Assembly: GCA_905221615.1 (NCBI GenBank)
Contig: CAJNDT010004557.1
Location: 1,421,001 to 1,485,000, forward strand
Reading direction: 5' to 3'
DNA length: 64,000 nucleotides
From: Symbiodinium sp. CCMP2592
Lineage: Eukaryota; Sar; Dinophyceae; Suessiales; Symbiodiniaceae
Numbering within the stretch: position 1 is the first letter of the stretch; each line of letters opens with the position of its first letter. The notes under the pieces are model-generated. The model saw only the letters and a program-made list of their open reading frames with translations. It was not told the origin of the DNA and did not search any database. Position numbers and translations under genes: made by a program. Below are positions 9,157 to 63,080 of this stretch, piece by piece.

Positions 9157-9251
9157 CCTACACACTTGTTGCTTATGCCAAAACTGTTCTGTCAGTATGG
9201 GAGCATATGCCAGCCCCTGAAGCCGAAGCTCCGAAGCCCTAAACCCCAAGA

Positions 9252-9353
9252 CCCTATATGGTCTCCATTGTAGTTCCTTTTTTTGGTTTAACCAATTATA
9301 TATTAAGGATCCTAAAAGGTAACCCCCAAAAGGAACTACAATGGAGACTATAG
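9252..9353. repeat. MITE-like family A, copy 1
   Basis: The near-palindrome has arms CCTATATGGTCTCCATTG and CAATGGAGACTATAGG. Each arm is followed by the AGTTCC motif, and the core contains TTAAGGATCC. Family A has six clear copies and several remnants in the window. Confidence 0.8.
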
Positions 9354-9691
9354 GTTAGAAGCCGTAAACCGCATTTGCTCTTTTGAAGGATGACTCGCAG
9401 AAGGGTTGTGTTCTTTGCTTGTGCCTCCTTTTTTTCGGAACAGTTGGGGAAGCTAAGTTTTCTCGGTGGCTCCTGTGAGAGTTGAGGTCTCTGGTTTCGG
9501 GGTTTTGCGAGGTGTTGAACGTGAGCGAAACTCTAAAGCTCACACAATTCCGTAGATCCCAGTACTGTTCTGACCCCTGACTTGATCATAGGGTAGGGCC
9601 CTCGCCCCAGTCTACACCAAAAAAGCAGTATAGGCTGTGGGATCCGCAGGCACGGGGTCTCAGGTAGTTTTGCGTTGTGGTGGAGCCGGAT

Positions 9692-10102: not shown

Positions 10103-10821
10103 CATAGAGGGACGGCGCCCCAAATCAAAAGCAACCCTCACTCCTGAGCCCTTAACCCTCTCACCTCCTCAAACTCCTTTTTTTAGGAAAGTTGAGGGTT
10201 TGACGTTTCTTGTTCCTGGAGGACAAGCTTTGGCGCCAATCTCCCGGCTTATGGCACGCGTTTGGGGTAACAGCGGCGAGAACCATCCCGCGAACATGTA
10301 CAAGGCGTGCCTGCCTTAAGGACCACCCATTTTGCATTATGAAGCGCATTTATTATTCTTCGTTGCAGACTTGTTCATACTTCTGTGGTCCTTTGTTGAC
10401 CTGAAACCTGGCCCTACAACCGTTAGGTGTTGCTACCGGTACTGAGGCGTCCAAGCTGCTACTGCTACAGTAAGGCCCGATGTCAGTTTCTGTTAAGCCT
10501 CTGACGTCTGAGAGTCTAATGGAGCAGGAGATGCTGAAGACAAGTTCTGGCCATGACCCCCTAGGCCTTGTTAGATCCAACACACAAACACACACAAGTC
10601 CACAAGCCCCGACGACGCCAAGCTGTGAATGAAATTCTTCCATCCTGCTACTCAGACTGCCCCAAGAGTCCCCGAAAAGCGCACACGTCCTCCGAAGCTT
10701 CTCCGAAACTTGAATACAGGGGTCAAGAAGGCTAAACCGGGCACCGTCAGGCCCGCCCCCTGCCTGAGACCACTTACAGCACGTAGGTGTGGACTCTGAA
10801 CTGCTTAGAGTTTAAGGGATT

Positions 10822-10923
10822 ACCTATAGTCTCCATTGTAGTTCCTTTTTTTGGTGTAACCAATTCTATACTAGAGATCCTAAAAGGTAACCCCAAAAAG
10901 GAACTACAATGGAGACTATAGGT
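10822..10923. repeat. MITE-like family A, copy 2
   Basis: The arms ACCTATAGTCTCCATTGTAG and CTACAATGGAGACTATAGGT are a perfect 20-bp inverted repeat, one of the best-preserved copies. Confidence 0.85.
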
Positions 10924-12355: not shown

Positions 12356-12456
12356 TGGGTAGTTGTCAAATTTGAGGTCGCTTTTTGGGTACCCTAAATA
12401 ATTGGTGCCGTATTGTAATAGCGATCCAAAAAGGGACCCTAATTTTGACAACCACC
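12356..12456. mobile_element. MITE family C, copy 1
   Basis: The arms GTGGGTAGTTGTCAAA and TTTTGACAACCACC are inverted. The interior GGGTACCCTAAATAATTGG matches other C copies. No clean target duplication is visible at this copy. Confidence 0.75.
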
Positions 12457-14150: not shown

Positions 14151-14250
14151 GGTGGTTGTCAAAATAGGGGTCCCTTTTTGGGTACCCCAAATAATAAGCG
14201 CCGCATTATAGTAAGGACCCAAAAAGGGACCATAATTTTGAAAACCACTC
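14151..14250. mobile_element. MITE family C, copy 3
   Basis: The ends are GGTGGTTGTCAAAATAGGGG and CCATAATTTTGAAAACCACTC. It lies between TATA and ATAT, so the duplication is blurred by drift. Confidence 0.75.
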
Positions 14251-19972: not shown

Positions 19973-20082
19973 CATTACCTATAGTCTCCATTGTAGTTCC
20001 TTTCTTTGGTTTAACCAATCATATATTAAAGATCCTATAAGGAAACCCCAAAAAGGAACTACAATGGAGACTGTAGGTAATG
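19973..20082. repeat. MITE-like family A, copy 4
   Basis: The arms CATTACCTATAGTCTCCATT and AATGGAGACTGTAGGTAATG pair over 20 bp with one mismatch. Confidence 0.85.
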
Positions 20083-28151: not shown

Positions 28152-29299
28152 AAGTCATAGGGACCCTTAGGGGCGTAGGGGGAGGGGGGTAGGGGGCCGT
28201 AACACCTATAACAAGGATTCAATAAGGCCCAGTAAAGGAAGTATAGTCCCCTACCCCATTAAGGGTCCCCTGTGAAGGAAGGGGTCTTCTGATCTGCGGT
28301 CGACACTCCTTCGGATACGAGCCACAGTTTATTGTTTGCGAAGCTGCCGGAGCTTCAGGGGCGACCTCCAGGCGAAGTACGAAGCCTGTTTTAGGGTTTA
28401 GGGTTCGGTCTGATTGAGCAATGAATAGGTTATTTGTAATCGCCTTGTCAGCACGCACACAGTTCTAAGATTCATATACCCTTGATCGAATCATCAAGGC
28501 CCCATGGGTCTGTTGCAGGGGGCCCGGAAATCGAGCCAAAAGCCAAGTGTTCTGCTTTCGGCAGTTTGAAGGAGCTTCCTGGCCGACTCTGACTTTCTGG
28601 TATGATGTTGAGGGTTTAGGGTTTGGGGTTTAGGTTTCCTTGCGGCTTGAATTAGAAACCAGTTTTTAGGGCTCTTTTCCTATGGTGAATAGGTGGTTTG
28701 ATCTGTAGCGCTGTGGTTGCTGATAAGGTCTGTGATCTTGCTGCTGCAGGGTATGAGGCGAGGGCGGTTGTTGGGCGCCTTAGGGCTAGCATGGCACCGG
28801 CTCTCGCCGACTACGAGGAATGGCGGAGATTGCGATGTCGTTTGCACTTGGCTTGGCTGTGCGTACTCACCAGTGGGTAGAGGGAGGATGAGGAGTAGCC
28901 CCGTCGGGGAGACAATACCATGTCATGCAGGGAAGAGGAACAGTAATAGTATCCTGGCTTCTGCTACACTGCCCTACACACCGCTTTCGCTATCCTTTCA
29001 TTTGTGCGACTGTCAGGTCTGTCCAGGGAACTCCCGTCGTTTCCTGTGCTTGAGATACACATGCTGCCGATTGCATGTGCAAACTATGAATCCTGGGGCA
29101 TGGATTTTGGAGATGGGGTCTTGGGGTTCAGGATATTTATCCTCAAGCCCGGAAACCCTGTATAAGATGCTATCGCATTTCGGGGGTTTGAGGAGCCTTT
29201 GTAGGTTTAGGGCGATGGCGACCTTGAAAACTGTTGCGGAAAAACTGTGAAGACGGATTGCTCTTCCTTGAATTCCCAAGATTCATACAGCCAAGACCA

Positions 29300-29399
29300 C
29301 CTATAGTCTCCATTGTAGTTCCTTTTTGGGGTTACCGTATAGGATCCTTAATATATGATTGGTTAAACCACAGAAAGGAACTACAATGGAGACTATAGG
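29300..29399. repeat. MITE-like family A, copy 6
   Basis: The arms CCTATAGTCTCCATTGTAG and CTACAATGGAGACTATAGG are a perfect 19-bp inverted repeat. Same orientation as the copy at 28048. Confidence 0.87.
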
Positions 29400-31840
29400 C
29401 AGAGCCTGAACCTTGAAACTCTTCGCACCGAGGGCACAATCCTGAGTCCTAAACCTCTCAAGGCGCAGGGAACATAAGTCCAAACCCTTAGGCCCCAAAA
29501 CCTGGCTGAACCCCAAACAATATTTAGCCATCTTATGAGGATGTCTGATTATGAAATCTTTACATATGTCCTAGACATGTAGGTTTCGAGGAGGTGCAGG
29601 ATACTCCCGTATCCATGTGTCGGAGCAGCTTCTCTTCGACGACTTGTAAATCGGATGCTTCGCCGCCACCTACTAAGTAAAATTGCCAAACTTCGTAATA
29701 GTTACTCCGGTTTAGAGTTTAGGGTTTAATAGTTACTCTCCAACTTGATAGTAATTAGATATTTGGGACCTCAGGCTCGGGGTAAACTTGTCAGATCAGC
29801 TTGACATGCAGACTCAATGTACATGGACAAAGTCATTATGTGTCAGTTTGTCGATGCTAATCGATGGTGACTGTTTCGGCTTGATGTTGGAAGGCAGGCA
29901 CCTGTACGATGTGGGGTCAAACTTGCTTTGCTTTGCACATGCTCCGGCAGATAGCTGCGAGTGCCTCGATCTGATGCAAGGAGACCTTGCGAAAAACAGC
30001 GCCGAGCTTCGGGTTTTGGGGGGCTTAGGGCTTCAGGTGTGTAGGGCCCAATGTTGGGGGTCTACAGCCAGCGAGCCAGGCAAGCTCACAGGCCTTGAAG
30101 CCCTAATCTAAGCGAACCCTCGACCCATAGGCTCTAACCCCCTAGCTCCTCTTGCTTAAGAAGCCTGAACCCTCGACCCGTAGACCCTAAACCTGTAAAC
30201 CCTGAACCTTCAAGCTTTACGGCCCTGAGCCCTAAGCCCATCTTTCAGCAACAGTAGAATCACATATGGCCTGATTTATTTGGAATGCTATGCCTTAGGG
30301 TGGCTGAATAGAAATACGTGCATATAGTTTGTAGCTTTGGCATAAGCCATGTTTTCGAGCTTCCAAGGGCGGAGCTTGAGAAGTCGTTCGTAGTCTATTG
30401 TGTTTACTTACTTTAGGCTTCCTCTGTTCTGTTTGATGTTGGGGCGCATCGCAGCACACCGCCCCGCGAGCAGTTTGGTATACCCAACAACCTTTTTTAA
30501 TTATTACAAAGCCCGTCTATTAAGTGGTTGAGATTACGCCCGGGGTTCATGGTCCAGGGTGTAGGTGTAGGCTTTGCGTTGAGCAGTCTGGGATTCACAT
30601 GTTGCACCGTCTGTTGGTGGAGATGCCCCCTGAAGTTTATACAACCTGTTGGAGGGCAGTCAGTGGACATATGCCGAATGTTTGTTCAAGCTTTTCGAAG
30701 ATAGTCAGTTTAAATTTCTTGGGCACAGCCGTAAGCTTGCGACCTTAAACTGCCCCAAGCCCCTTCAGCACTAGACCCCACTCCCCTTCATTAGCGGCAA
30801 ACCGTGTAAACCGCCGAAACCCCAAACTCAAATCATGACCCCATATGCTCTTGCAACCCAAGCCTAAGGACAGACACGAATATATACCCTAAACCATATA
30901 CCCTAAACCCCAAGCCCCGTGAGTCCCCTAAGTCATGAAAGAGCCCCATGATCCTTGTGGACGAGACGCCCAGGCGACTCGCTTTGAGCGGCAGGTGTCC
31001 CCCGAAGATGCTTTGGCCCCTTTGGCTGAATGTCCTTCCCGGCCTAGGTCCTAGGTTCGGAGTTCAGGACGTAGAGTTCAGAATTTTGCTAAGAGCCTGC
31101 CGATCTCACTTTCGGAAAGCGCAGATGGTGCTAGATTTGTAATGACATATGGGAGTTCACTCCTTAGGGATCCTTTAAGGGTTCTTTTTCAGGGATCCGT
31201 TAGGGGATCCTTCAAGGGCTCCCTTAAAGGATCCTTTCGGACTAGGATTGGGTTTCAACATAGAGTTCTTTTTTGCAGAGAAGTGGGCCCGGAACTTGAC
31301 CGTGCTGAATTCAGATCAGCTCCGGGTGGCGCAGGCTTCCTTCGAGCACTATGCTATAGTGCACATATCTTAAAGCATCTTACAGTATGCTACATAATCG
31401 TATCTTCGAGTGCCTCATAATAAGCTGTAGTATCCTATCCTATAGTATATTCTTGTATCTGAAAGTGAACTATCATGGCAGAACTGCAAGGGCCAAGCTG
31501 CAGAGACCCCTATAATCCGGCCCGTGGCTGAACCCATCTTCGACGGAAGGCGCTAAGAAGTCGAACTCAGGGTGAGGGTTTAGGGTTAGAAATCGAACTC
31601 AGGGTTCCTTTATGGCGTCCTTTCCGAGACCTCGAAAGTTTCGAAGACGTCAGAAGTTCCTATCGGGGATCCTTTAAACGATCCTGAAAGGGTTCCTTTA
31701 GGGGTTCCTTTTCCAAGATGCTTTAAAGGTTCCTTAACGGCTCTTTTAAAGGATCCTTTGAAGATCCTTTAAGGGTTCCTCTCAAAGGGCCGAAGCCCTA
31801 AACTCTAAACCCTAACCCCTGCTTGTGCTCCTGTCCATGT

Positions 31841-52543: not shown

Positions 52544-52644
52544 GGGTGGTTGTCAAAATTATGGTCCCTCTTTGGGTCCTTATTATAATACGGGACCTAA
52601 TATTTCGGGTACCCAAAGAGGGCCCATAATTTTCACAACTGCCC
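52544..52644. mobile_element. MITE family C, copy 6, 4-bp target duplication ATAT
   Basis: The ends are GGGTGGTTGTCAAAATTATG and ATAATTTTCACAACTGCCC. ATAT lies at 52540-52543 and 52645-52648. The central segment is inverted relative to other C copies (GGTCC before TAATATTTCGGGTACC). Confidence 0.83.
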
Positions 52645-54589: not shown

Positions 54590-54679
54590 CCTAAGCCCCT
54601 AAACCCTTAAACCCCTAAACCCAATCCCTAAACCCTAAACCCAATCCCTAAACCCTAAACCCAATCCCTAAACCCCTAT
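54590..54679 (-). repeat. Telomeric repeat tract abutting the LINE 3' end
   Basis: CCCTAAA and CCCAATCCCTAAACCCTAAA (a 20-bp higher-order unit, about three copies). Read on the LINE sense strand, it is TTTAGGG with GGGATTGGG variants directly after about 60 bp of 3' untranslated sequence. No poly(A) is present. Confidence 0.88.
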
Positions 54680-54738
54680 ATCACACGAGTTCTGAGGCAC
54701 ACGCACGGCGAGAGCAGTGCGGCATGCCAGGGTCCGAA

Positions 54739-55674
54739 TCAGCCAAAAGGTCTGGCGAGATCCGCTGACACCCGTATTGGGCGCGAAGCGGTAAACGACT
54801 GAATGAGGAGCCGAGCCTCCATCAGTCTCTCGGTGCAACATCTCAAAACAATCCCATCAAGGGGACGGAACACCCCTAAAGAAACCCTATCTAAATCAAC
54901 GCACCAATGAGACTGGAGGGTGGCCCATCTCAACATCAACCAGACTGCGCTCCTGACCAAGCGTAACTGTACAGATAAGGTCGGCCGCGCAGGTCGAAAA
55001 ACAACCCGAGAAGCATCAACCCATCGACCTGTCGAAGGGCAAATAGCCGGATATGTAAAATCCCCGTGCAGACTAAGCAATGCCACCAACTCCAAGCATG
55101 AGACTTCGAAAAAGTCGTTGCCCGACGAATCCTCCTGAAGCACGAAATCCCAGATCGAAGCAACGAAACCCTGGGGAAGGTAGCCACAATTTGTCGTATG
55201 CACCCTCCACGTGATTGGTAGTGTCTCCGATATTGGATCCAACAGGGTCAACAAAGGCACCGGTGGAGCCTCCACGGCGGCTTCAACGGTCAGGTGCCTC
55301 TTCGGCTGCGGCATCGTCAGCTCCGCCACCTCGAAGAAAAGGGTCCTCAGGCCTCGAATCACCGATGCTGTGTCATGGTATCGACGAAGAGCAGAAGCAT
55401 GGAGCTCGGCAAAGTCCCAGTCTCTGTTCAAATTGCATTGAACCGCCATTGTGTCAGCTCTACTATTGAACCTGGCAATCCACTCCTCAAAACCATCCTC
55501 ACAGAGCCGTGGATCCAGGTGCGACGGCACATGACGTAGAAAAATTTGGCCTGGGTATGTCAGGGCCAACAGGTCCGCTACTTGACGCCAGAGGTCCGAG
55601 TTGTCCGAACTTGGGTCAATTGACCCGCCAGCTTGCAGAGCCAAGACTCCGTCCACAATATACTGCGCATCGCT
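54739..55674 (-). CDS. Continuation of LINE ORF2: end of RNase H and C-terminal domain, after an in-frame TGA
   Basis: Same frame as ORF2; the codons after the TGA read SDAQYIVDGV, the third-Asp motif of RNase H, followed by HVPSHLD and RADTMAV, which complete the active site (D, E, D, D across the stop). About 220 residues follow that I do not recognise, including LPITWRVHTTNCGYLPQGF and FFEVSCLELVALL. There is no ATG near its start, so it is only useful as part of ORF2. RNase H families usually have an aromatic residue where the TGA sits, so TGG to TGA is the simplest change. Ends in TGA at 54739. Confidence 0.8.
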   Translation of the reverse strand, partial: SDAQYIVDGVLALQAGGSIDPSSDNSDLWRQVADLLALTYPGQIFLRHVPSHLDPRLCEDGFEEWIARFNSRADTMAVQCNLNRDWDFAELHASALRRYHDTASVIRGLRTLFFEVAELTMPQPKRHLTVEAAVEAPPVPLLTLLDPISETLPITWRVHTTNCGYLPQGFVASIWDFVLQEDSSGNDFFEVSCLELVALLSLHGDFTYPAICPSTGRWVDASRVVFRPARPTLSVQLRLVRSAVWLMLRWATLQSHWCVDLDRVSLGVFRPLDGIVLRCCTERLMEARLLIQSFTASRPIRVSADLARPFG

Positions 55675-55677
55675 TCA
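55675..55677 (-). other. In-frame TGA inside RNase H
   Basis: It lies between TTAVI and SDAQYIVDGV, and both sides are clearly the same domain. A nonsense mutation, a readthrough codon or an assembly error are all open. Confidence 0.85.
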
Positions 55678-58600
55678 GATTACTGCTGTTGTCTTGGACT
55701 GGATCGTCCATCGAATGGCCACCAGTATCGCAGTGAGTTCCGCGCGAGGAATAGTTTGCAAAAGGCCTCCAAGATGTTCCGAAGCCAGAACCGCGTCACT
55801 GTTGGCATGGATCACTGCCCATGCCGCCAAAGCATAATCAGGAGTTTCAGTGAACAAACAGGATCCGTCCGTAAACAGATGCTGAATTTGACTTGCCTCG
55901 AAGTGCACGTTCTGAAAATGCAGTGATTGGTGCATGCCATGTAATCGGGACCGCAGTGCACGTAGCACAGGGCATGCAGGTGGCAGCAGGTGGTTCGTCA
56001 AACAAACAGGAAGAACTGGCCATAAGTCGACGACCCATGAAGCCCGCGAACGAGCGACCTGAAAGCGGGGACACTCAACAAGGCGGTGATGCACTGTATC
56101 AGCAACAGCACATTGAGGGCAGAGTCCGGACTGGCTCTTGTCAAAACGGCTGTGCGAGTCAGCACATAAGAATGCTCCTGATTGAATGGCTCCGACACGG
56201 CTCTGATCAATAGCACTGAGCCTGTCGTGGTCCAAGAGAGCCAAAGCTGGTTCAATGCCGCTCAGGTCCCGCATTGTTTGCCGATGACGGTGGCAATGAG
56301 CCACATGTGCCAGCCATGACCTGTCAAGGATCTTCACCAAGAGGTTGGAAGGCATACCAAGAAGATCATGCCGAAGGCCTTCTTCGTCCGAGAAGTAGGG
56401 GACCTGGGCCAAACTCCACCCCAGCAAGGAGAAGACTTGAACAAGCTTCGAGAAGGGACCCTGATGGTAGTGACCATCGAATTGGTAGTGGAACATACGC
56501 CACTGGTCCACAAGCCGTGGTTGCTTATGACACATTCTGCGGAAGTCCAGCAAGGTGCGACGTGCCTGATAGTAGCCAGGGTCAGCATCAAGATGGCCGC
56601 TCAAGGACAATCGCAACATGGAGCTGGATCCGGCCGGGTGTATCTTTAATGATTGCGTGGCTGCACTGCGAAGGCGTTGCAAAACTTCCTCACCCCCGGG
56701 ACAACCCAATGAGCCATGCAACGCTCCAGCCCAGCATTTGATCGGAAGAATGGCCAACTTCAAAGAGACGGGGCTGAAAGACCGAGACAGCTTCTTCCAA
56801 ACTGGTGCTAGCGCCCTGCCGCGCTCCTGTAACTCGGCTGTGCGGACTTTTGGGCCATACGACATGAGCCCACCCAGATCCCTTGCCGCGAGTCTGATAG
56901 GAAGCTGTAGCGCTCGCACGGCTTTACGAGCCTGCGGAGTGGTGGCCCATACGTAAGTCTTTTCCTCGTCAAGCTCGAGGCCCAGCATATCACAAAAAGA
57001 CTGGGTTAATGTCCAACCTCTAGCTAATTCAAGGATGCCAAAAGCCGTTACTGCTAGGTTGTCGACAAACGAGTGAGAACATACTCGCGGCTCAAACACA
57101 CTCAGATAGACATGCCAAGCCGTGTCCATAATGGCCATGGCCACAGGTGACAGCGGACATCCTTCCGCAAAGCCTACGTCAGATCTGATTGGGGCGCTGA
57201 CGCAATGCCGAACCACAAATCGTCGCTCCATCTGTTGAAGGAACCCTTGCCAAGGCGTTAAGAGCCGATCAGGAACTCCCATAACAGAAGCCATCCCAAA
57301 TAGAGGAATTCTCGGCAAACCGTTAAACGCTTTGACAAGATCAGTGCTTAGTCCAAACAGGGCCGTGCCAGACTGGATGCAGAGTTCAATGTCCGCTTGG
57401 AGGCAAGTCCAGTATTCCATCGCTTCTCTACCAGGAAGGAAGCCATACGCAGCATGTTGTTGGAGAGAGGCTACAAAGCTCAGAAGTTGTCGAGCCCTGA
57501 TTCCGGCCCAGGTGCGATAAATCATTGAAAACAGAACAATGGGTCGATAGGCCTGGGCATCAGTGCGCCCATTCTGTTTGTCCAGGCTCAGGACTAGCCC
57601 CAGAAGCCAAGAATCCGGCCATGAAGCATTGCCAAGTTCAATCGCGTGGAGGAAGCTTAACAGACTGTTGACCTGACCATCAGTCATGTGGGCAAGGTCT
57701 TGTTTTGCAAATCCATCAGGGCCCCGTGCTGCACGTGGTTTGAAGCGGCGCACGGCCGCACGCCATTGATCGACAGAGATGTCTGAAATGGTTAAGGAGC
57801 TGCTCGGGAAAAAGGCCGCAGAAAAGTCCAGGACCCGCTGCCAATCACTTGGTGAAAGGCCTGCATGTCGCTGCCACCTGCGTTTCCATAAGTCAACGAA
57901 TTCAAACTGCACATCGGAAACCGAGGAGAGCGTTTGGAGTTGCTCAAGCTCGTCTCCTTCCTCAACTTGCAAAGGCCCAACAATGGTACAGACTTCGCCA
58001 TCACAGTCGATATCACTGACAACGACACGCGAATCCTGAATAGTCCAAAGAGAAGAACCTCTGTTGTCAACAGCTGGTTCAACCTGTACCTGTTGGGTAG
58101 ACGGCTCAACCGCGAGCACAGTGTAAGTGCGGTGGACCTGTAACGTGTCAACTTGGGGCGGCGAAGGTTCCTTCAAAGATCGCAAAAGTTCTGCGCGGGA
58201 AGTGGCGAAACGCGCTTTCAAGATATCTTGCCGGCGTCGTATGTGCCAAGCCTCGAGCCTGCGGAAATTTGCCCTGAAGTCCTCATGGACAGCGCGAGCC
58301 ACAAGAAGCGAAGGTATGGTCACTGGGAGCGCTTCGGGGGCGCCTTGAAGCTGCACCTGTCGCGTAGCCCACCAGCGACAGAAGCCGTAGGCGAACCCAG
58401 GGGCTTGCAGGATGGAGCGCCAGAGATCAATGCGATAGCAGTGAGCAGCAGGAGTGTCTTTCTTAGCCGCCAGTGCGTGGACCAAGCTTTGCAGACGGCG
58501 GAGTTGTTTGAACCACCGCTTGACTTCCATGCATACAAAGTCATGCCTCAACGAGTCCTCGCCAGCACGGCTGGGACGTAGCGGAATGGTGGGGAAGGAA

Positions 58601-59823
58601 CGGGTTTCAGGATGCGTTCGTTGGCCACGTCCCCTGCAGCTAGAAGGCAAACGCCCACATGGCACTTCGCGAATGCAACCTTGCAGACTGGACTCGAAAG
58701 CAACCGAAAAATCGCGCAACCAGTCATTGGGGGCCTGTGTAGCAAAAGGCACCGCCGCGGCCTGCTGAGCAAGCCTGTCCAAGTCCACCAGATGCCACGG
58801 AATCTCAGAAGGTAACGGCCATACGTTAGCCATAACAACCTGGTCGGGAACGCTGAAGGAGGCGATGACCGTACTGTGCTCCTGGAAAATATCAACGACT
58901 TCCACAGCTTGTAACATGGCGGCCAATTCAGGCGAAACCCACACCATGTCACGCTGGGTTGCTGATTTGCACGTCGGCAAGATTTCTTGGTGCCACCTCA
59001 AAGCCGCGATGGTTTGAACCTCTTGCCAGCCATGGCAAAGCCACATCTGAACCTGCTCTAAGTGATCAGGGTGTTGGTTGAAGTCCCCGCAAATGGCGCG
59101 AGGGCCAGTCCGTCCAAGTACGAGCTCGGCCGTAAGCGGTTCAAGTAATGAGTTGGTCTGTGCCACAGCTTGAGGGTGAGTTGGGCCTGAGCAGAAACCG
59201 TACACATTCGCACACACCACTGGCAAATGCCCCACCGCGTGGTACGTGGTTTGGATTCTACCCGTCTCGAACAAACCCTCAGGGTAGGGCAGATTCACGC
59301 TGCGAGATGCGAAATCGGAGGTAGTTAAGACACCAGTCCAAGCACCTGCCCAGGCTGAACCCGATCTGAGCGGGGCCGGACTGCCGGTGAAGCATCTCAA
59401 TTCTCGGCATTCGCATCTAGCTAAATGCCGTAAGCTGGCACAGGACGTCTTTTGCGTTTCCTGCGACAACTGGGTTTCGCTGTAGCAGAAGATGCCAGGG
59501 CCAAAATCCACACAAAGTGACTCTTTCCCTCTGAGTCCACTGGGATTGGAGGTGGCGATTCGAAGACAAGAAGGGCCCCATGAAGGGCCAGGGTTGGCAG
59601 CCTCACCGATGCGGAAGGATGGGCAGCCATGAGAACGCACATAAGAGGCATCAACTTCATGAAACTGGTCCTTGGCCCAGGCTCCGTCAAAATCCACATG
59701 ATCCGAACCATGGGCCGCCGGAAGGAAAGTCCAGACGAGAAGAGCGAGAAATCTCAGTACAGGAGTGCACCGCCACAGACACAGCCCGCAGGAACTCCCA
59801 AACCTGCGGCTGCTGCGGCCTAG
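55675..59823 (-). CDS. LINE ORF2: AP-type endonuclease, reverse transcriptase, CCHC knuckle, start of RNase H
   Basis: The frame opens directly after the ORF1 TGA in the same phase. There is no ATG until inside the endonuclease; the first possible non-AUG start I note is GTG at 59697, used here for numbering. Endonuclease: N51 (TSNPSGL), E74 (YSETQ), Y166 (NVYGF), D205/N207 (GDFN), D250, H274 (EHSTVIASF), all catalytic positions filled. Reverse transcriptase: YRPIVLFSMIYR, motif A STDLVKAF (about 785), motif B EGCPLSP (about 845), motif C SFVDNLAV (about 875), in which the second Asp of the usual xxDD is Asn. CCHC knuckle C-x2-C-x7-H-x4-C (about 1193-1210). RNase H begins with TDGS (about 1276) and PRAEL (about 1316). 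It ends at a TGA in the RNase H domain, and the rest continues in frame. It copies element RNA at a nicked target in the nucleus. Confidence 0.88.
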   Translation of the reverse strand, partial: LGRSSRRFGSSCGLCLWRCTPVLRFLALLVWTFLPAAHGSDHVDFDGAWAKDQFHEVDASYVRSHGCPSFRIGEAANPGPSWGPSCLRIATSNPSGLRGKESLCVDFGPGIFCYSETQLSQETQKTSCASLRHLARCECRELRCFTGSPAPLRSGSAWAGAWTGVLTTSDFASRSVNLPYPEGLFETGRIQTTYHAVGHLPVVCANVYGFCSGPTHPQAVAQTNSLLEPLTAELVLGRTGPRAICGDFNQHPDHLEQVQMWLCHGWQEVQTIAALRWHQEILPTCKSATQRDMVWVSPELAAMLQAVEVVDIFQEHSTVIASFSVPDQVVMANVWPLPSEIPWHLVDLDRLAQQAAAVPFATQAPNDWLRDFSVAFESSLQGCIREVPCGRLPSSCRGRGQRTHPETRSFPTIPLRPSRAGEDSLRHDFVCMEVKRWFKQLRRLQSLVHALAAKKDTPAAHCYRIDLWRSILQAPGFAYGFCRWWATRQVQLQGAPEALPVTIPSLLVARAVHEDFRANFRRLEAWHIRRRQDILKARFATSRAELLRSLKEPSPPQVDTLQVHRTYTVLAVEPSTQQVQVEPAVDNRGSSLWTIQDSRVVVSDIDCDGEVCTIVGPLQVEEGDELEQLQTLSSVSDVQFEFVDLWKRRWQRHAGLSPSDWQRVLDFSAAFFPSSSLTISDISVDQWRAAVRRFKPRAARGPDGFAKQDLAHMTDGQVNSLLSFLHAIELGNASWPDSWLLGLVLSLDKQNGRTDAQAYRPIVLFSMIYRTWAGIRARQLLSFVASLQQHAAYGFLPGREAMEYWTCLQADIELCIQSGTALFGLSTDLVKAFNGLPRIPLFGMASVMGVPDRLLTPWQGFLQQMERRFVVRHCVSAPIRSDVGFAEGCPLSPVAMAIMDTAWHVYLSVFEPRVCSHSFVDNLAVTAFGILELARGWTLTQSFCDMLGLELDEEKTYVWATTPQARKAVRALQLPIRLAARDLGGLMSYGPKVRTAELQERGRALAPVWKKLSRSFSPVSLKLAILPIKCWAGALHGSLGCPGGEEVLQRLRSAATQSLKIHPAGSSSMLRLSLSGHLDADPGYYQARRTLLDFRRMCHKQPRLVDQWRMFHYQFDGHYHQGPFSKLVQVFSLLGWSLAQVPYFSDEEGLRHDLLGMPSNLLVKILDRSWLAHVAHCHRHRQTMRDLSGIEPALALLDHDRLSAIDQSRVGAIQSGAFLCADSHSRFDKSQSGLCPQCAVADTVHHRLVECPRFQVARSRASWVVDLWPVLPVCLTNHLLPPACPVLRALRSRLHGMHQSLHFQNVHFEASQIQHLFTDGSCLFTETPDYALAAWAVIHANSDAVLASEHLGGLLQTIPRAELTAILVAIRWTIQSKTTAVI

Positions 59824-59826
59824 TCA
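59824..59826 (-). other. In-frame TGA between LINE ORF1 and ORF2
   Basis: ORF1 ends KKPRQE-TGA and the next 42 codons to the GTG stay open, including a hydrophobic stretch LRFLALLVWTFLPAAHG. Next comes CTA, so the stop context on the sense strand is TGA C, a context known from leaky stops in other systems. Confidence 0.6.
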
Positions 59827-62800
59827 CTCTTGCCTGGGCTTTTTGTGAAAAAGCTGCTGAATCTGTTCCAGCTGGCCGGCTAATTGTGATGACAGTTGCT
59901 GCGTCATGTCGTTCTGTAGGCTTTGGACTGCCTGACTGACCGTTGTATGGACCTCAGTGCGCAACTGACCCATCTCAGAGCTTTGACTTTGGACGGCATC
60001 AGACAACCCTTTGATCTGTTCAGCTTGAGTGGACATCTTGCCACCAAATGTGGCAAACCAAGACTCGAATTTTTCGTTTTGGAGACGGACCTCATCAAGG
60101 CCGATTTCTAACCTGCGGAATCGAGCCTCAGAAGAAGCGTCAAGGCCAGATGACTGAGAGGCATGCTCTTTGGCAATCTGGTGCATGTCATTCCGCAAAT
60201 CCGAGGAGATCTGCGCGAGCTTGGTTGCAGCTGTTGAGGACGTTGCTGAGTTGGCGGCTGGCAGTTTGGACTGTGACCATGGGTCGCGGCCATTAGCCCA
60301 TGGGTCTGAAGTGTCCCCAGAGGCGGGCTCCCCGTCGTCATACAGGATATGCTTTCGGGTCTTTGTGGAAGCCCAAACGCTCGGAGTGACAGAAGAAGAA
60401 GTCTGCTCTCGCAACTTGGTAATGAGTACAAAGCCATCGGCAAGAGGCATGGTCCAGGAAGGTGGGTCCTCCGAGGCGCCAACTTCCCACGCGGTGCCGG
60501 AAGCATCGCCCCGACCTGGTTGCAATGGCCGGGCAGTCCAACCCCATCGGCGCAGAAGTTGAGTAAGCCCTTTCCTCTGAAATCCAAAAGGCAAGGGATG
60601 CAGCCTATACTTCGCGGAAATGTGCACCTTCACGAACTGATGTTGAGGGCGGAATCGCATGAACATGGTTTCCTCGTCTGATTCCTTGACACGGAGGCCG
60701 AACTTTCGACCCAATCTTGTGAGAGCGATAGCTTTTTCGCATGTGCGACAGGCGTGCTGCGCTGATTGCAAATCCATATTGGACAGCCAGATGACTGCGT
60801 AGGATGGATCGGCACCTCCCGCAGCATTCCGAGGCTCGAAATAGATGCCCTTGTAGGAAGTTGTTTGGAGCAAGGCCACTGCCGTTCCCGGAACGCGCAG
60901 AAACGCCGAGAACGTTTGAGCCTTCTTGGCATCTTCCTTGCCTCCTTCTAGCTTCTGCCACTGCCGGCTCCACACATCCAGAACGACGCTGTCTACTGAT
61001 TCTTCCACTGCGGCGTGGAACTTTCCGCACTCGCCTTTGCACAATGGAGACTTGCAGAGATTAAGCTCAGCAACGATTTGAAGGAGGTGGCGAATGGGAG
61101 CTTCAAGCAGCTGTTCCCACGGGGTCTGCAACTCATCTCGGAAGATTGTGACTTTTACGACCTTGGTTTCCACCTGCTCCAATTCTGCGATATCCTCCTG
61201 ACGTAGCTGGATTTCCTCGTCGCCGAGTTGCAGAAGGGTGCCGGTCAAGATGATGCCCTCTCCTGTGGGAGTGTAAACCGCAGGAAACTTGATGGTACTG
61301 GCTGGGCAACCCGCAATAGCTGCCTCAGGCACCACCGAAGTCGACACGAGCCCTAAAGCCTCAACACTGAGCGCCTTGTACGGAGACAGAAATGGAGCGA
61401 GCTGCTGCACAGTGCAGAAAGCCAGTCCCCGGGCTTGAGGAACAACTTCGCTGAGCGATAACTGGCATATCTTATCATCCTCACCAGACACAAAAGAGCC
61501 CGAAGACATCTGGAGGTGCAAAGGCTCAACAAACAACGGTGCGCTGACTGGCTTTCGATTGGGCGCTTTTTGCTTTTTGGCCTTGGCTTTTGGAACAGTC
61601 GTGCCATGAAGCGAGGCAGCCCGCATAGCCACGTGCTGTTCCAACTCATCTGGCAACACCCAACGAAACATGCTGTTAGGCCTCGATGCTGCATTTTTTA
61701 ACGCCTGCCAGGGATTCCTGGCTGCCAATGCCTCTGAGGCTAATCCTGGGCCAAGCTTGTCAATTGCGACCTTGATGCGTTCATCAACTCTTGCCTCTGG
61801 GACGCCCTTCTCAAGCAACAAAGCCCGGAGCGCAGCATGAGACTCGTCACTTAGCTTGCCCGTGCCAACAAACCGAGCTCGATGAGCAGGCAAGGTGGAG
61901 ACAAACGCAAAAATTCGTGACAACAGACCGTCGGGAAGCTGCGAGCAACCGCTGACAACACAAACCGCATGTGCGACAGCAATTTGGCCACAAGCAAAGC
62001 AATCTGTCTGAGGAACCAAGCATAAAGTTTGCAATGGGGCAACCGTCAGGCCCCATGACATAGCTATGGTTTCCACCAACACAGTTGCAGGCACCACCGA
62101 AGTATCAGGAAGACCATCCAAGCTGACAGCAACAAGGCGTTCACCCGAGGCTCGAGACATGTGGACCAAGCTCCAATGCCCATTATAGACAAAGGCTGCG
62201 AGCAACGTGTGCGCATTGGCTCGTGGAAGCACCTCAAGACAACGACATGCCAAGCCCTGCATTGAAAGCTCAACGACCGTCGTGGCGACGGCACTCGGAA
62301 GAATGCATAAGCCAGGAAATGATGCTAAGTCCACAAAGTGACCTAAAGCTGCATCAACTGCCGTGTCTGACATGCCAAAAGCATCGGAGGAATGTATGCA
62401 GGGAATTCGCAAGTCCATGATCACGTCCTTCCAGAGGCGGGAATCCAAGGGGAAGCCTGCTCCGGTCAAGCCATCACGGCAGCACAAGCGATGCCAGGAG
62501 GCATCAGAAGGAACCACCTCAAAAGCAAAAGTGCCAGCTGGGATCCGATGTTCAGTTATTCCACTAGAGGAAATTACAACGGCATGAACCGCCAGCTCTG
62601 GCAGGGGTCTGGCCTGACATTTGTCAGCAATTGAGAGCACACATGAAGGGCTGCCTGCAAGGCTTTGCAGTGGGGTGGATGGCGGAATGACCCGTCCTTC
62701 ATCATATAGGTTTAAGCGCTTGCCAAAACCTGACAACCTGGCCTCAGCAATCAAGAGATCAGCAACAGTGTCAGCTGGCGCAGCACGCATTTGAAAGTTG

Positions 62801-62946
62801 ACTCCATCTTGCCTAATCGTGATCTGAAAAGCATGAGGGCCTTCAGACGTGGCCCAATGATCAGCCTGCTCCGTGAGCACAGACCTTTTACTCACCGAGT
62901 TACAGGAACTGGCCAGATCTATCACAGCAGCTGCTGATTCAGCCAT
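59824..62946 (-). CDS. LINE ORF1 protein: ubiquitin-like domain, Ulp1-like protease motifs, CCCH-like zinc motif, coiled coil (1040 aa)
   Basis: Expected RNA-binding and assembly partner of the retrotransposon, with extra parts. The ATG at 62946 has a strong context (GCCATGG). Residues about 38-107 read like a ubiquitin fold (HAFQITIRQDG, LLIAEARLSG, LYDEGRVIPPSTPL, SCVLSI). Residues 250-330 hold, in Ulp1/SENP order, H257 (GHWSL), D277 (VSLDGL), Q313 and C319 (PQTDCFACGQ); Q-to-C is 6 residues, as in Ulp1. About 617-645 contain CKSPLCKGECGKFH (C-x4-C-x3-C-x3-H). A conserved-looking block follows (LLRRWGWTARPLQPG). Residues about 900-1035 are a heptad-rich coiled coil ending KKPRQE, as in L1-type ORF1 proteins. 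It ends in TGA and the frame continues into ORF2. Assignment as ORF1 is firm by position; the protease is a motif-level inference. Confidence 0.8.
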   Translation of the reverse strand: MAESAAAVIDLASSCNSVSKRSVLTEQADHWATSEGPHAFQITIRQDGVNFQMRAAPADTVADLLIAEARLSGFGKRLNLYDEGRVIPPSTPLQSLAGSPSCVLSIADKCQARPLPELAVHAVVISSSGITEHRIPAGTFAFEVVPSDASWHRLCCRDGLTGAGFPLDSRLWKDVIMDLRIPCIHSSDAFGMSDTAVDAALGHFVDLASFPGLCILPSAVATTVVELSMQGLACRCLEVLPRANAHTLLAAFVYNGHWSLVHMSRASGERLVAVSLDGLPDTSVVPATVLVETIAMSWGLTVAPLQTLCLVPQTDCFACGQIAVAHAVCVVSGCSQLPDGLLSRIFAFVSTLPAHRARFVGTGKLSDESHAALRALLLEKGVPEARVDERIKVAIDKLGPGLASEALAARNPWQALKNAASRPNSMFRWVLPDELEQHVAMRAASLHGTTVPKAKAKKQKAPNRKPVSAPLFVEPLHLQMSSGSFVSGEDDKICQLSLSEVVPQARGLAFCTVQQLAPFLSPYKALSVEALGLVSTSVVPEAAIAGCPASTIKFPAVYTPTGEGIILTGTLLQLGDEEIQLRQEDIAELEQVETKVVKVTIFRDELQTPWEQLLEAPIRHLLQIVAELNLCKSPLCKGECGKFHAAVEESVDSVVLDVWSRQWQKLEGGKEDAKKAQTFSAFLRVPGTAVALLQTTSYKGIYFEPRNAAGGADPSYAVIWLSNMDLQSAQHACRTCEKAIALTRLGRKFGLRVKESDEETMFMRFRPQHQFVKVHISAKYRLHPLPFGFQRKGLTQLLRRWGWTARPLQPGRGDASGTAWEVGASEDPPSWTMPLADGFVLITKLREQTSSSVTPSVWASTKTRKHILYDDGEPASGDTSDPWANGRDPWSQSKLPAANSATSSTAATKLAQISSDLRNDMHQIAKEHASQSSGLDASSEARFRRLEIGLDEVRLQNEKFESWFATFGGKMSTQAEQIKGLSDAVQSQSSEMGQLRTEVHTTVSQAVQSLQNDMTQQLSSQLAGQLEQIQQLFHKKPRQE

Positions 62947-63005
62947 GGCGAAACGGTCCCTCAGGCGATCTGTTGAAAAACGGCCGCACCCCTGGTAGGA
63001 GCCTG

Positions 63006-63080
63006 AGCCCGCGGCTCCCTAAACCCCTATAAACTCTAAACCCCAAACCCCTAAACCCCTAAACCCTAAACCCTAAACCT
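63006..63080 (-). repeat. Telomeric repeat tract abutting the LINE 5' end
   Basis: On the LINE sense strand it reads TTTAGGG and TTTAGGGG units, then decayed TTTAGAGTTTATAGGGG, directly before the leader. Confidence 0.85.

Follow-up and report, generated by a model that had tools for sequence, protein, structure and literature searches.

A putative readthrough UGA stop codon between the two reading frames of a SymbioLINE-type retrotransposon

Few answers have been worked out to the old question of how long interspersed nuclear elements (LINEs) obtain the product of their second open reading frame (ORF2) in a low, set proportion. In the accounts available to us, the known routes are termination–reinitiation, 2A peptides and, in telomeric LINEs, cases related to frameshifting; SART1 and mammalian L1 reach ORF2 by termination–reinitiation at its start codon, SART1 also making use of a downstream structure. 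The element described here is a LINE on the minus strand of a stretch of Symbiodinium sp. CCMP2592 DNA (64,000 nucleotides, nt; GenBank assembly GCA_905221615.1, contig CAJNDT010004557.1, positions 1,421,001 to 1,485,000; hereafter the window). It shares with SART1 and L1 an unusual access to ORF2 and would differ from them in mechanism: we estimate, at a probability of about 0.92, that its ORF2 enzyme is made as an ORF1–ORF2 fusion through programmed readthrough of the UGA stop codon that separates the two frames.

The closest described signal is the type II readthrough signal, defined in the consulted part of PMC11166343 as UGA, then CUA or CGG, with, in many cases, a stem-loop 6–12 nt downstream. 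As given in part of PMC4132726, UGA-CUA alone gives a readthrough of about 1.5% in human cells; UGA-CUAGGC is the sequence of human OPRL1 and of the Ross River and Getah alphaviruses. The LINE junction has the same architecture: TGA is followed by CTA, with the identical TGA-CTAGGC in the window and CUA then G in many copies, and a stem-loop starts after a 10-nt spacer. Because UGA, CUA and stem-loop match the published signal, we propose a fusion made by programmed readthrough; unlike in the known type II cases, the host here is a non-LTR (long terminal repeat) retrotransposon. The layout also resembles gammaretroviral Gag-Pol, where the downstream enzyme ORF likewise lies in frame behind one stop. 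However, gammaretroviruses are described as using UAG and a pseudoknot, whereas this LINE, in which no LTRs were found, has UGA-CUA and a simple hairpin.

As regards the element group, SymbioLINE-Dnmt is reported to have target-site duplications, conserved untranslated regions (UTRs) and no poly-A (de Mendoza et al. 2018, PMC5890265, in the part consulted). The window element is a LINE of SymbioLINE type related to it: both have two ORFs, an ORF2 with endonuclease, reverse transcriptase (RT) and RNase H, a target-site duplication and no poly-A. In contrast to SymbioLINE-Dnmt, ORF1 of the window copy gave no match to the Pfam DNMT profile (PF00145); the profile did match 4 of 11 aligned ORF1s, and the group is therefore tied to SymbioLINE-Dnmt. 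The main text of PMC5890265 contains none of the words readthrough, UGA, protease and peptidase. Among the matches listed for the open-licence literature, none was found to describe readthrough of a stop separating LINE ORFs, which is weak evidence of absence because the search covered open-licence papers alone. Both the mechanism and the element group are thus known, and their combination appears to be new.

The features of the element are collected in Table 1. As proposed in the initial annotation, its three open stretches share one phase, forming a single minus-strand frame: ORF1, a middle stretch open for 1382 codons directly after the ORF1 TGA, and a last stretch ending in TGA at 54739–54741. 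The endonuclease motifs N, E, Y and D fall at codon indices 91, 114, 206 and 245 after the ORF1 TGA (counting from 0), and FQEHST at 312. The region from this TGA to the GTG at 59697 is open. In agreement with the same annotation, the first ATG, codon 218 counted from that GTG (index 259), lies past all four motifs; it precedes FQEHST.

The conservation of this layout was evaluated on copies from the same genome, picked by protein similarity and not by stop codon or frame. The genome holds at least 36 ORF2 and at least 48 ORF1 matches; no relatives outside the source genome were found in viral_contigs or genome_contigs. Junctions were read in 37 copies (the window, L009–L027 and L029–L045; 25 clusters at 80% identity), comprising a main clade of 30 and seven distant copies (L038–L044). 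Outside this set are 6 of the 36 ORF2 matches (C3279, C280, two on C1079 and two on C315) and five ORF1 match places (C315:80996, C2286:14458, C3170, C4918 and C3524). L028 was kept out of all junction counts as an outgroup: this related LINE (36% in ORF2) has in-frame stops upstream, its own ATG, no ORF1 match and no readthrough signal.

In 36 of the 37 junctions the two ORFs are separated by TGA, and the codon after it is CTA in 32 of these 36, the others being CTC (L011, L041), CTG (L039) and CGG (L043), the last being the second triplet of the type II definition. Between the end of ORF1 and the GEA..PGP motif that precedes the endonuclease, the frame is open, the single stop aside, in 34 of the 37 copies, and the layout persists down to families 28–33% identical in ORF1. 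The expectation that related copies would keep both the TGA and the phase is therefore borne out.

The ORF2 stops served as an internal control, for which we used 12 cluster representatives with an intact ORF2 (1664–1742 codons; the interrupted cluster L027 was left out). Specifically, ORF1 ends in TGA in 12/12 and CTA follows in 11/12, while ORF2 ends in TGA in 6, TAG in 5 and TAA in 1, with CTA next in 0/12; Fisher p-values, descriptive only as the clusters are related, are 9.6e-6 for CTA and 0.014 for TGA. The choice of representative matters slightly: L024 ends ORF2 in TGA, its cluster's representative L019 in TAG. Since the ORF2 stops vary and lack CTA, the comparison indicates that these elements use TGA as an ordinary stop and that the ORF1 stop is special. 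A reassigned genetic code was rejected: ORF2 ends in TGA, TAA or TAG, and none of the 12 ORF2s, chosen for being intact, contains an in-frame TGA.

Downstream of the TGA, the main-clade copies share a hairpin whose stem consists of 11 pairs with one bulged base. The share of cells that are paired is 91.4% over 15 distinct rows and 91.3% over 21, the latter being 21 of the 30 main-clade copies after 9 near-identical ones were dropped. Changes on both sides occur in 10 of the 11 pairs. In 500 shuffles, neither the pairing nor the both-side counts nor the covariation score of the real alignment was ever reached, and the observed number of further pair types was reached by 1 and 2 of 500 (2 for the 21 rows); in control stems obtained by sliding, 33.5–45.1% of cells were paired (33.5–43.9% for the 21 rows). 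RNAalifold independently gave nearly the same stem, and a covariance model built on 20 rows matched 10/10 held-out main-clade copies at E values no higher than 1.4e-6; four of these copies are nearly the same as rows used in training.

These data bear on two further explanations. The first is a chance layout in dead copies, which the premature stop in the window copy and the frameshifts in several relatives might suggest; it has a negligible probability and is already contradicted by the retention of the layout over 25 clusters, by the hairpin covariation and by the intact ORF2s of the 12 representatives. The second takes the hairpin beside the UGA as a sign that RNA editing turns this codon into a sense codon or that it is read as selenocysteine, UGA being also the selenocysteine codon. 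We give it hardly any credence: editing does not require CUA, and the target repeat follows the last stop after just 58 nt, which offers little room for a selenocysteine insertion sequence (SECIS); no SECIS search was made.

Between the TGA and the endonuclease motif lies a linker that varies from 36 to 114 codons among copies. The 23 linkers evaluated, which leave out L036, L039 and L045 (motif out of frame), have no in-frame stop, against 38 and 27 stops in the two alternative frames; multiplying the probabilities obtained from shuffles yields about 1e-12 if lineages are treated as independent, which they are not fully. In nucleotide alignments of seven pairs, some sharing members, the ratio of non-synonymous to synonymous differences (pN/pS) of the linker is 0.57 (0.50–0.64) when read in frame and 0.78 and 1.20 in the two shifted frames, with 0.21 at the end of ORF1; indels are multiples of three in 4/4 cases in the linker and 4/6 at the ORF1 end. 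When 13 pairs were aligned at the protein level, the ratio came to 0.55 in the linker, 0.23 at the ORF1 end and 0.29 where the endonuclease begins. Because of its in-frame openness, its pN/pS and its indel pattern, the linker looks translated, under a constraint that is weak. A hydrophobic linker segment acting as a signal peptide is not claimed, as its mean z of 0.81 (23 linkers against dinucleotide shuffles) largely reflects composition.

The linker also argues against an ORF2 messenger of its own, produced by spliced-leader trans-splicing between the ORFs, or removal of the TGA with an intron. Trans-splicing is described as general in dinoflagellates (PMC6050394, in the part consulted). Yet 8 of the 23 measurable clusters lack a usable ATG, and an open, in-phase linker and a hairpin would be superfluous, so that this explanation appears highly improbable.

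Besides the weak constraint on the linker, several observations weigh against readthrough. In the seven distant copies, the covariance model found no junction match (7/7) at E up to 5, and single-sequence folding of their junctions revealed no common hairpin; in 14 main-clade junctions the z values of single-sequence folds are modest, from +0.65 to −2.10, the sequence being GC-rich. A sense codon replaces the TGA in L032, a decayed copy that is frameshifted further on and is counted among the 34 open ones, and in the broken copies L036, L039 and L045 the endonuclease motif is out of frame. Moreover, every copy compared comes from a single genome. Finally, in 15 of the 23 measurable clusters, including a mixed one, one member or more carries an in-frame linker ATG, so that reinitiation may occur there. 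The lack of an ATG ahead of the endonuclease, on which the initial annotation relied, thus holds in the window copy; of the 23 clusters, it holds in 8 and fails in 15. That annotation had named an in-frame ATG or a sense codon in related copies as grounds for refutation; both do occur, and we judge that they do not refute readthrough.

The linker ATGs, together with the separate start described for SART1 and mammalian L1, favour an ORF2 that is started on its own, by termination–reinitiation or by non-AUG or internal initiation, for example at GTG 59697. We nevertheless regard this as very unlikely. Such a start has no need of a shared frame, of UGA-CUA or of a 3' hairpin, yet all three are kept, and reinitiation at the GTG, which had been offered as an option, accordingly finds no support. 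In addition, 8 of the 23 clusters have no linker ATG and the first ATG of the window copy comes past four endonuclease motifs; where a linker ATG exists its position shifts from cluster to cluster, and L035 lacks it although its relatives L012–L014 have one.

In contrast, Gag-Pol-style readthrough of the UGA, also put forward initially, gains support from the shared phase and the retained TGA and, in addition, from two elements absent from that proposal, the CUA context and the covarying hairpin. Its occurrence, frequency and purpose are all inferred from sequence. According to this model, most ribosomes would end at the UGA and free the ORF1 protein, with its coiled-coil-like end and Ulp1-type protease fold. 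In a minority, the CUA context and the hairpin about 10 nt further on would lead to insertion of an amino acid at the UGA, and these ribosomes would go on through linker, endonuclease, RT and RNase H. The result would be a ratio like that of Gag to Gag-Pol.

The UGA-CUA cassette, retained throughout 25 diverged clusters and accompanied by a covarying hairpin in the main clade, would extend the repertoire of LINEs to virus-type recoding and would also be evidence for programmed readthrough in this host. For gene annotation, it means that a TGA may sit inside a coding unit in such genomes.

The predicted ORF1 protein carries a Ulp1/C48-type cysteine protease fold with catalytic H, D, Q and C. 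A profile of 11 ORF1s searched against PDB sequences matched the Ulp1-like XopD (E = 3.5e-6), a Ulp1-like SUMO protease (0.012), HhaI methylase (0.013) and SENP5 (0.029), while Pfam C48 gave E = 0.097 in 1 of the 11. The AlphaFold2 model of the window ORF1 is poor overall (pLDDT 57) and reaches about 63–90 in blocks across residues 190–350; with this model the best Foldseek match had E = 1.5e-6, the top matches including XopD, bacterial deubiquitinases, SENPs, Ulp1 and NEDP1, with SENP/Ulp1 chains in large number. All 11 aligned ORF1s share Q313, C319 and G320; H257-W258 is almost invariant, and the catalytic D is replaced by E in L024. In front of the protease fold there is probably a ubiquitin-like fold, to which one ubiquitin-based Foldseek match corresponds (at rank 45, with E = 1.1e-3 and no aligned range shown).

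Could the likeness to retroviruses extend further? A LINE that has converged on the full Gag-Pol logic, with a leaky stop, an enzyme made only as a fusion, and a polyprotein cut by the ORF1 Ulp1-type protease, perhaps near GEAx(N/H)PGP, is a tentative idea that we consider unlikely. The GEAx(N/H)PGP motif adjoins the endonuclease on its N-terminal side in nearly all copies read (window 59584–59607). An NPGP-like end just before the endonuclease (GEAxNPGP or GEAxHPGP) is also reminiscent, in the accounts available, of the 2A StopGo peptides of trypanosome and sea urchin LINEs. The 2A consensus is DxExNPGP. A 2A peptide was rejected for the motif found in most copies: D-x-E is absent and N is often H.

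In ORF2, the N, G-D-N and H motif columns of the endonuclease are invariant or nearly so in 10 aligned sequences, and the Pfam Exo_endo_phos match (E = 0.058) is below the cut-off. The RNase H match is likewise weak and below the cut-off (E = 0.014, residues 1315–1376 of 1382), and the second TGA falls just before the SDAQ motif. RNase H had been listed as a third open frame of its own behind the second TGA; instead, this TGA cuts the RNase H domain of ORF2. L009, which is 99% identical, has no stop at this site, its ORF2 being open for 1694 codons (1382+1+311). Given its place inside RNase H and its absence from L009, the second TGA is, on this comparison, a premature stop, that is a later nonsense mutation of the window copy alone; for the same reasons a second recoding site was rejected.

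The ends of the element were set by comparison with L009, with which it shares a body from 63015 to 54681. A stretch of 69 nt separates the 5' end from the start of ORF1. Endonuclease and RT in ORF2, together with a target-site duplication and no LTRs in a flank-versus-flank comparison of the window copy, identify a non-LTR retrotransposon (LINE, apurinic/apyrimidinic endonuclease type); the longest exact repeat between the two flanks, 17 nt, lies inside TTTAGGG repeats.

Table 1. Features of the element in the window (positions counted from the first letter of the window).
Feature	Position	Strand	Basis or remark
Full-length LINE	54681..63015	−	body common to window copy and L009, flanks different
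5' target-site duplication TATAGGGGTTTAGGGA	63016..63031	−	16 nt
3' target-site duplication	54665..54680	−	identical 16 nt
ORF1, 1040 aa plus TGA	59824..62946 (ATG at 62946)	−	aligned with 10 relatives
ORF1 ubiquitin-like fold, residues ~38–108 (place inferred)	62623..62835	−	AlphaFold2 strand/helix order and Foldseek
ORF1 predicted Ulp1/C48-type cysteine protease domain, residues ~190–350	61897..62379	−	place from motifs (H-W, D-G, Q, C-G) and model confidence
ORF1 invariant C-C-C-H cluster (C631, C636, C640, H644)	61015..61056	−	ORF1 alignment
ORF1 C-terminal long helix, coiled-coil-like, low model confidence	59860..60132	−	AlphaFold2 model
Putative leaky TGA between ORF1 and ORF2	59824..59826	−	comparison of junctions among copies
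CTAGGC directly 3' of ORF1 TGA (readthrough context)	59818..59823	−	
Covarying hairpin, starting 10 nt after TGA	59781..59813	−	covariation tests
In-frame linker, 72 codons, no ATG	59608..59823	−	
ORF2 from GEAANPGP motif: endonuclease, RT, first part of RNase H	55678..59607	−	
Pfam RVT_1 (RT)	56947–57558	−	E = 1.3e-9
Second TGA inside RNase H, premature stop of window copy	55675..55677	−	
ORF2 remainder (rest of RNase H, C-terminal region) plus terminal TGA	54739..55674	−	

Of 20 copies scanned, 10 (window, L009, L010, L019, L020, L021, L022, L024, L025 and L026) are flanked by duplications of 15–16 nt; in the others none was found, perhaps as the 5' end lay outside the sequence taken. The duplications begin with TATA in seven copies, TATG in one, TAAG in one and GATG in one (L021), pointing to a TATA-like nick preference. 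Targeting of telomere repeats, considered for the TTTAGGG-like flanks of the window copy, is not supported, as the other duplications differ and the TATA start recurs. The short 3' UTR (54681–54738) carries a recurrent hairpin of the form GCAC.GC..GC.GTGC, seen also in L009 and 13 further copies; among 14 single-sequence folds, L022 and L027 have other letters and a similar shape. This hairpin is perhaps an RT recognition element.

Elsewhere in the window there are families of interspersed repeats of about 100 nt, on both strands, that resemble miniature inverted-repeat transposable elements. Those of the AGGAACTACAATGGAGAC type occur at 9251–9355, 10819–10923, 19974–20078 and 29296–29400, and those of the GGTTGTCAAA...TTTGACAACC type, with inverted ends, at 12358–12455, 14151–14248 and 52545–52642.

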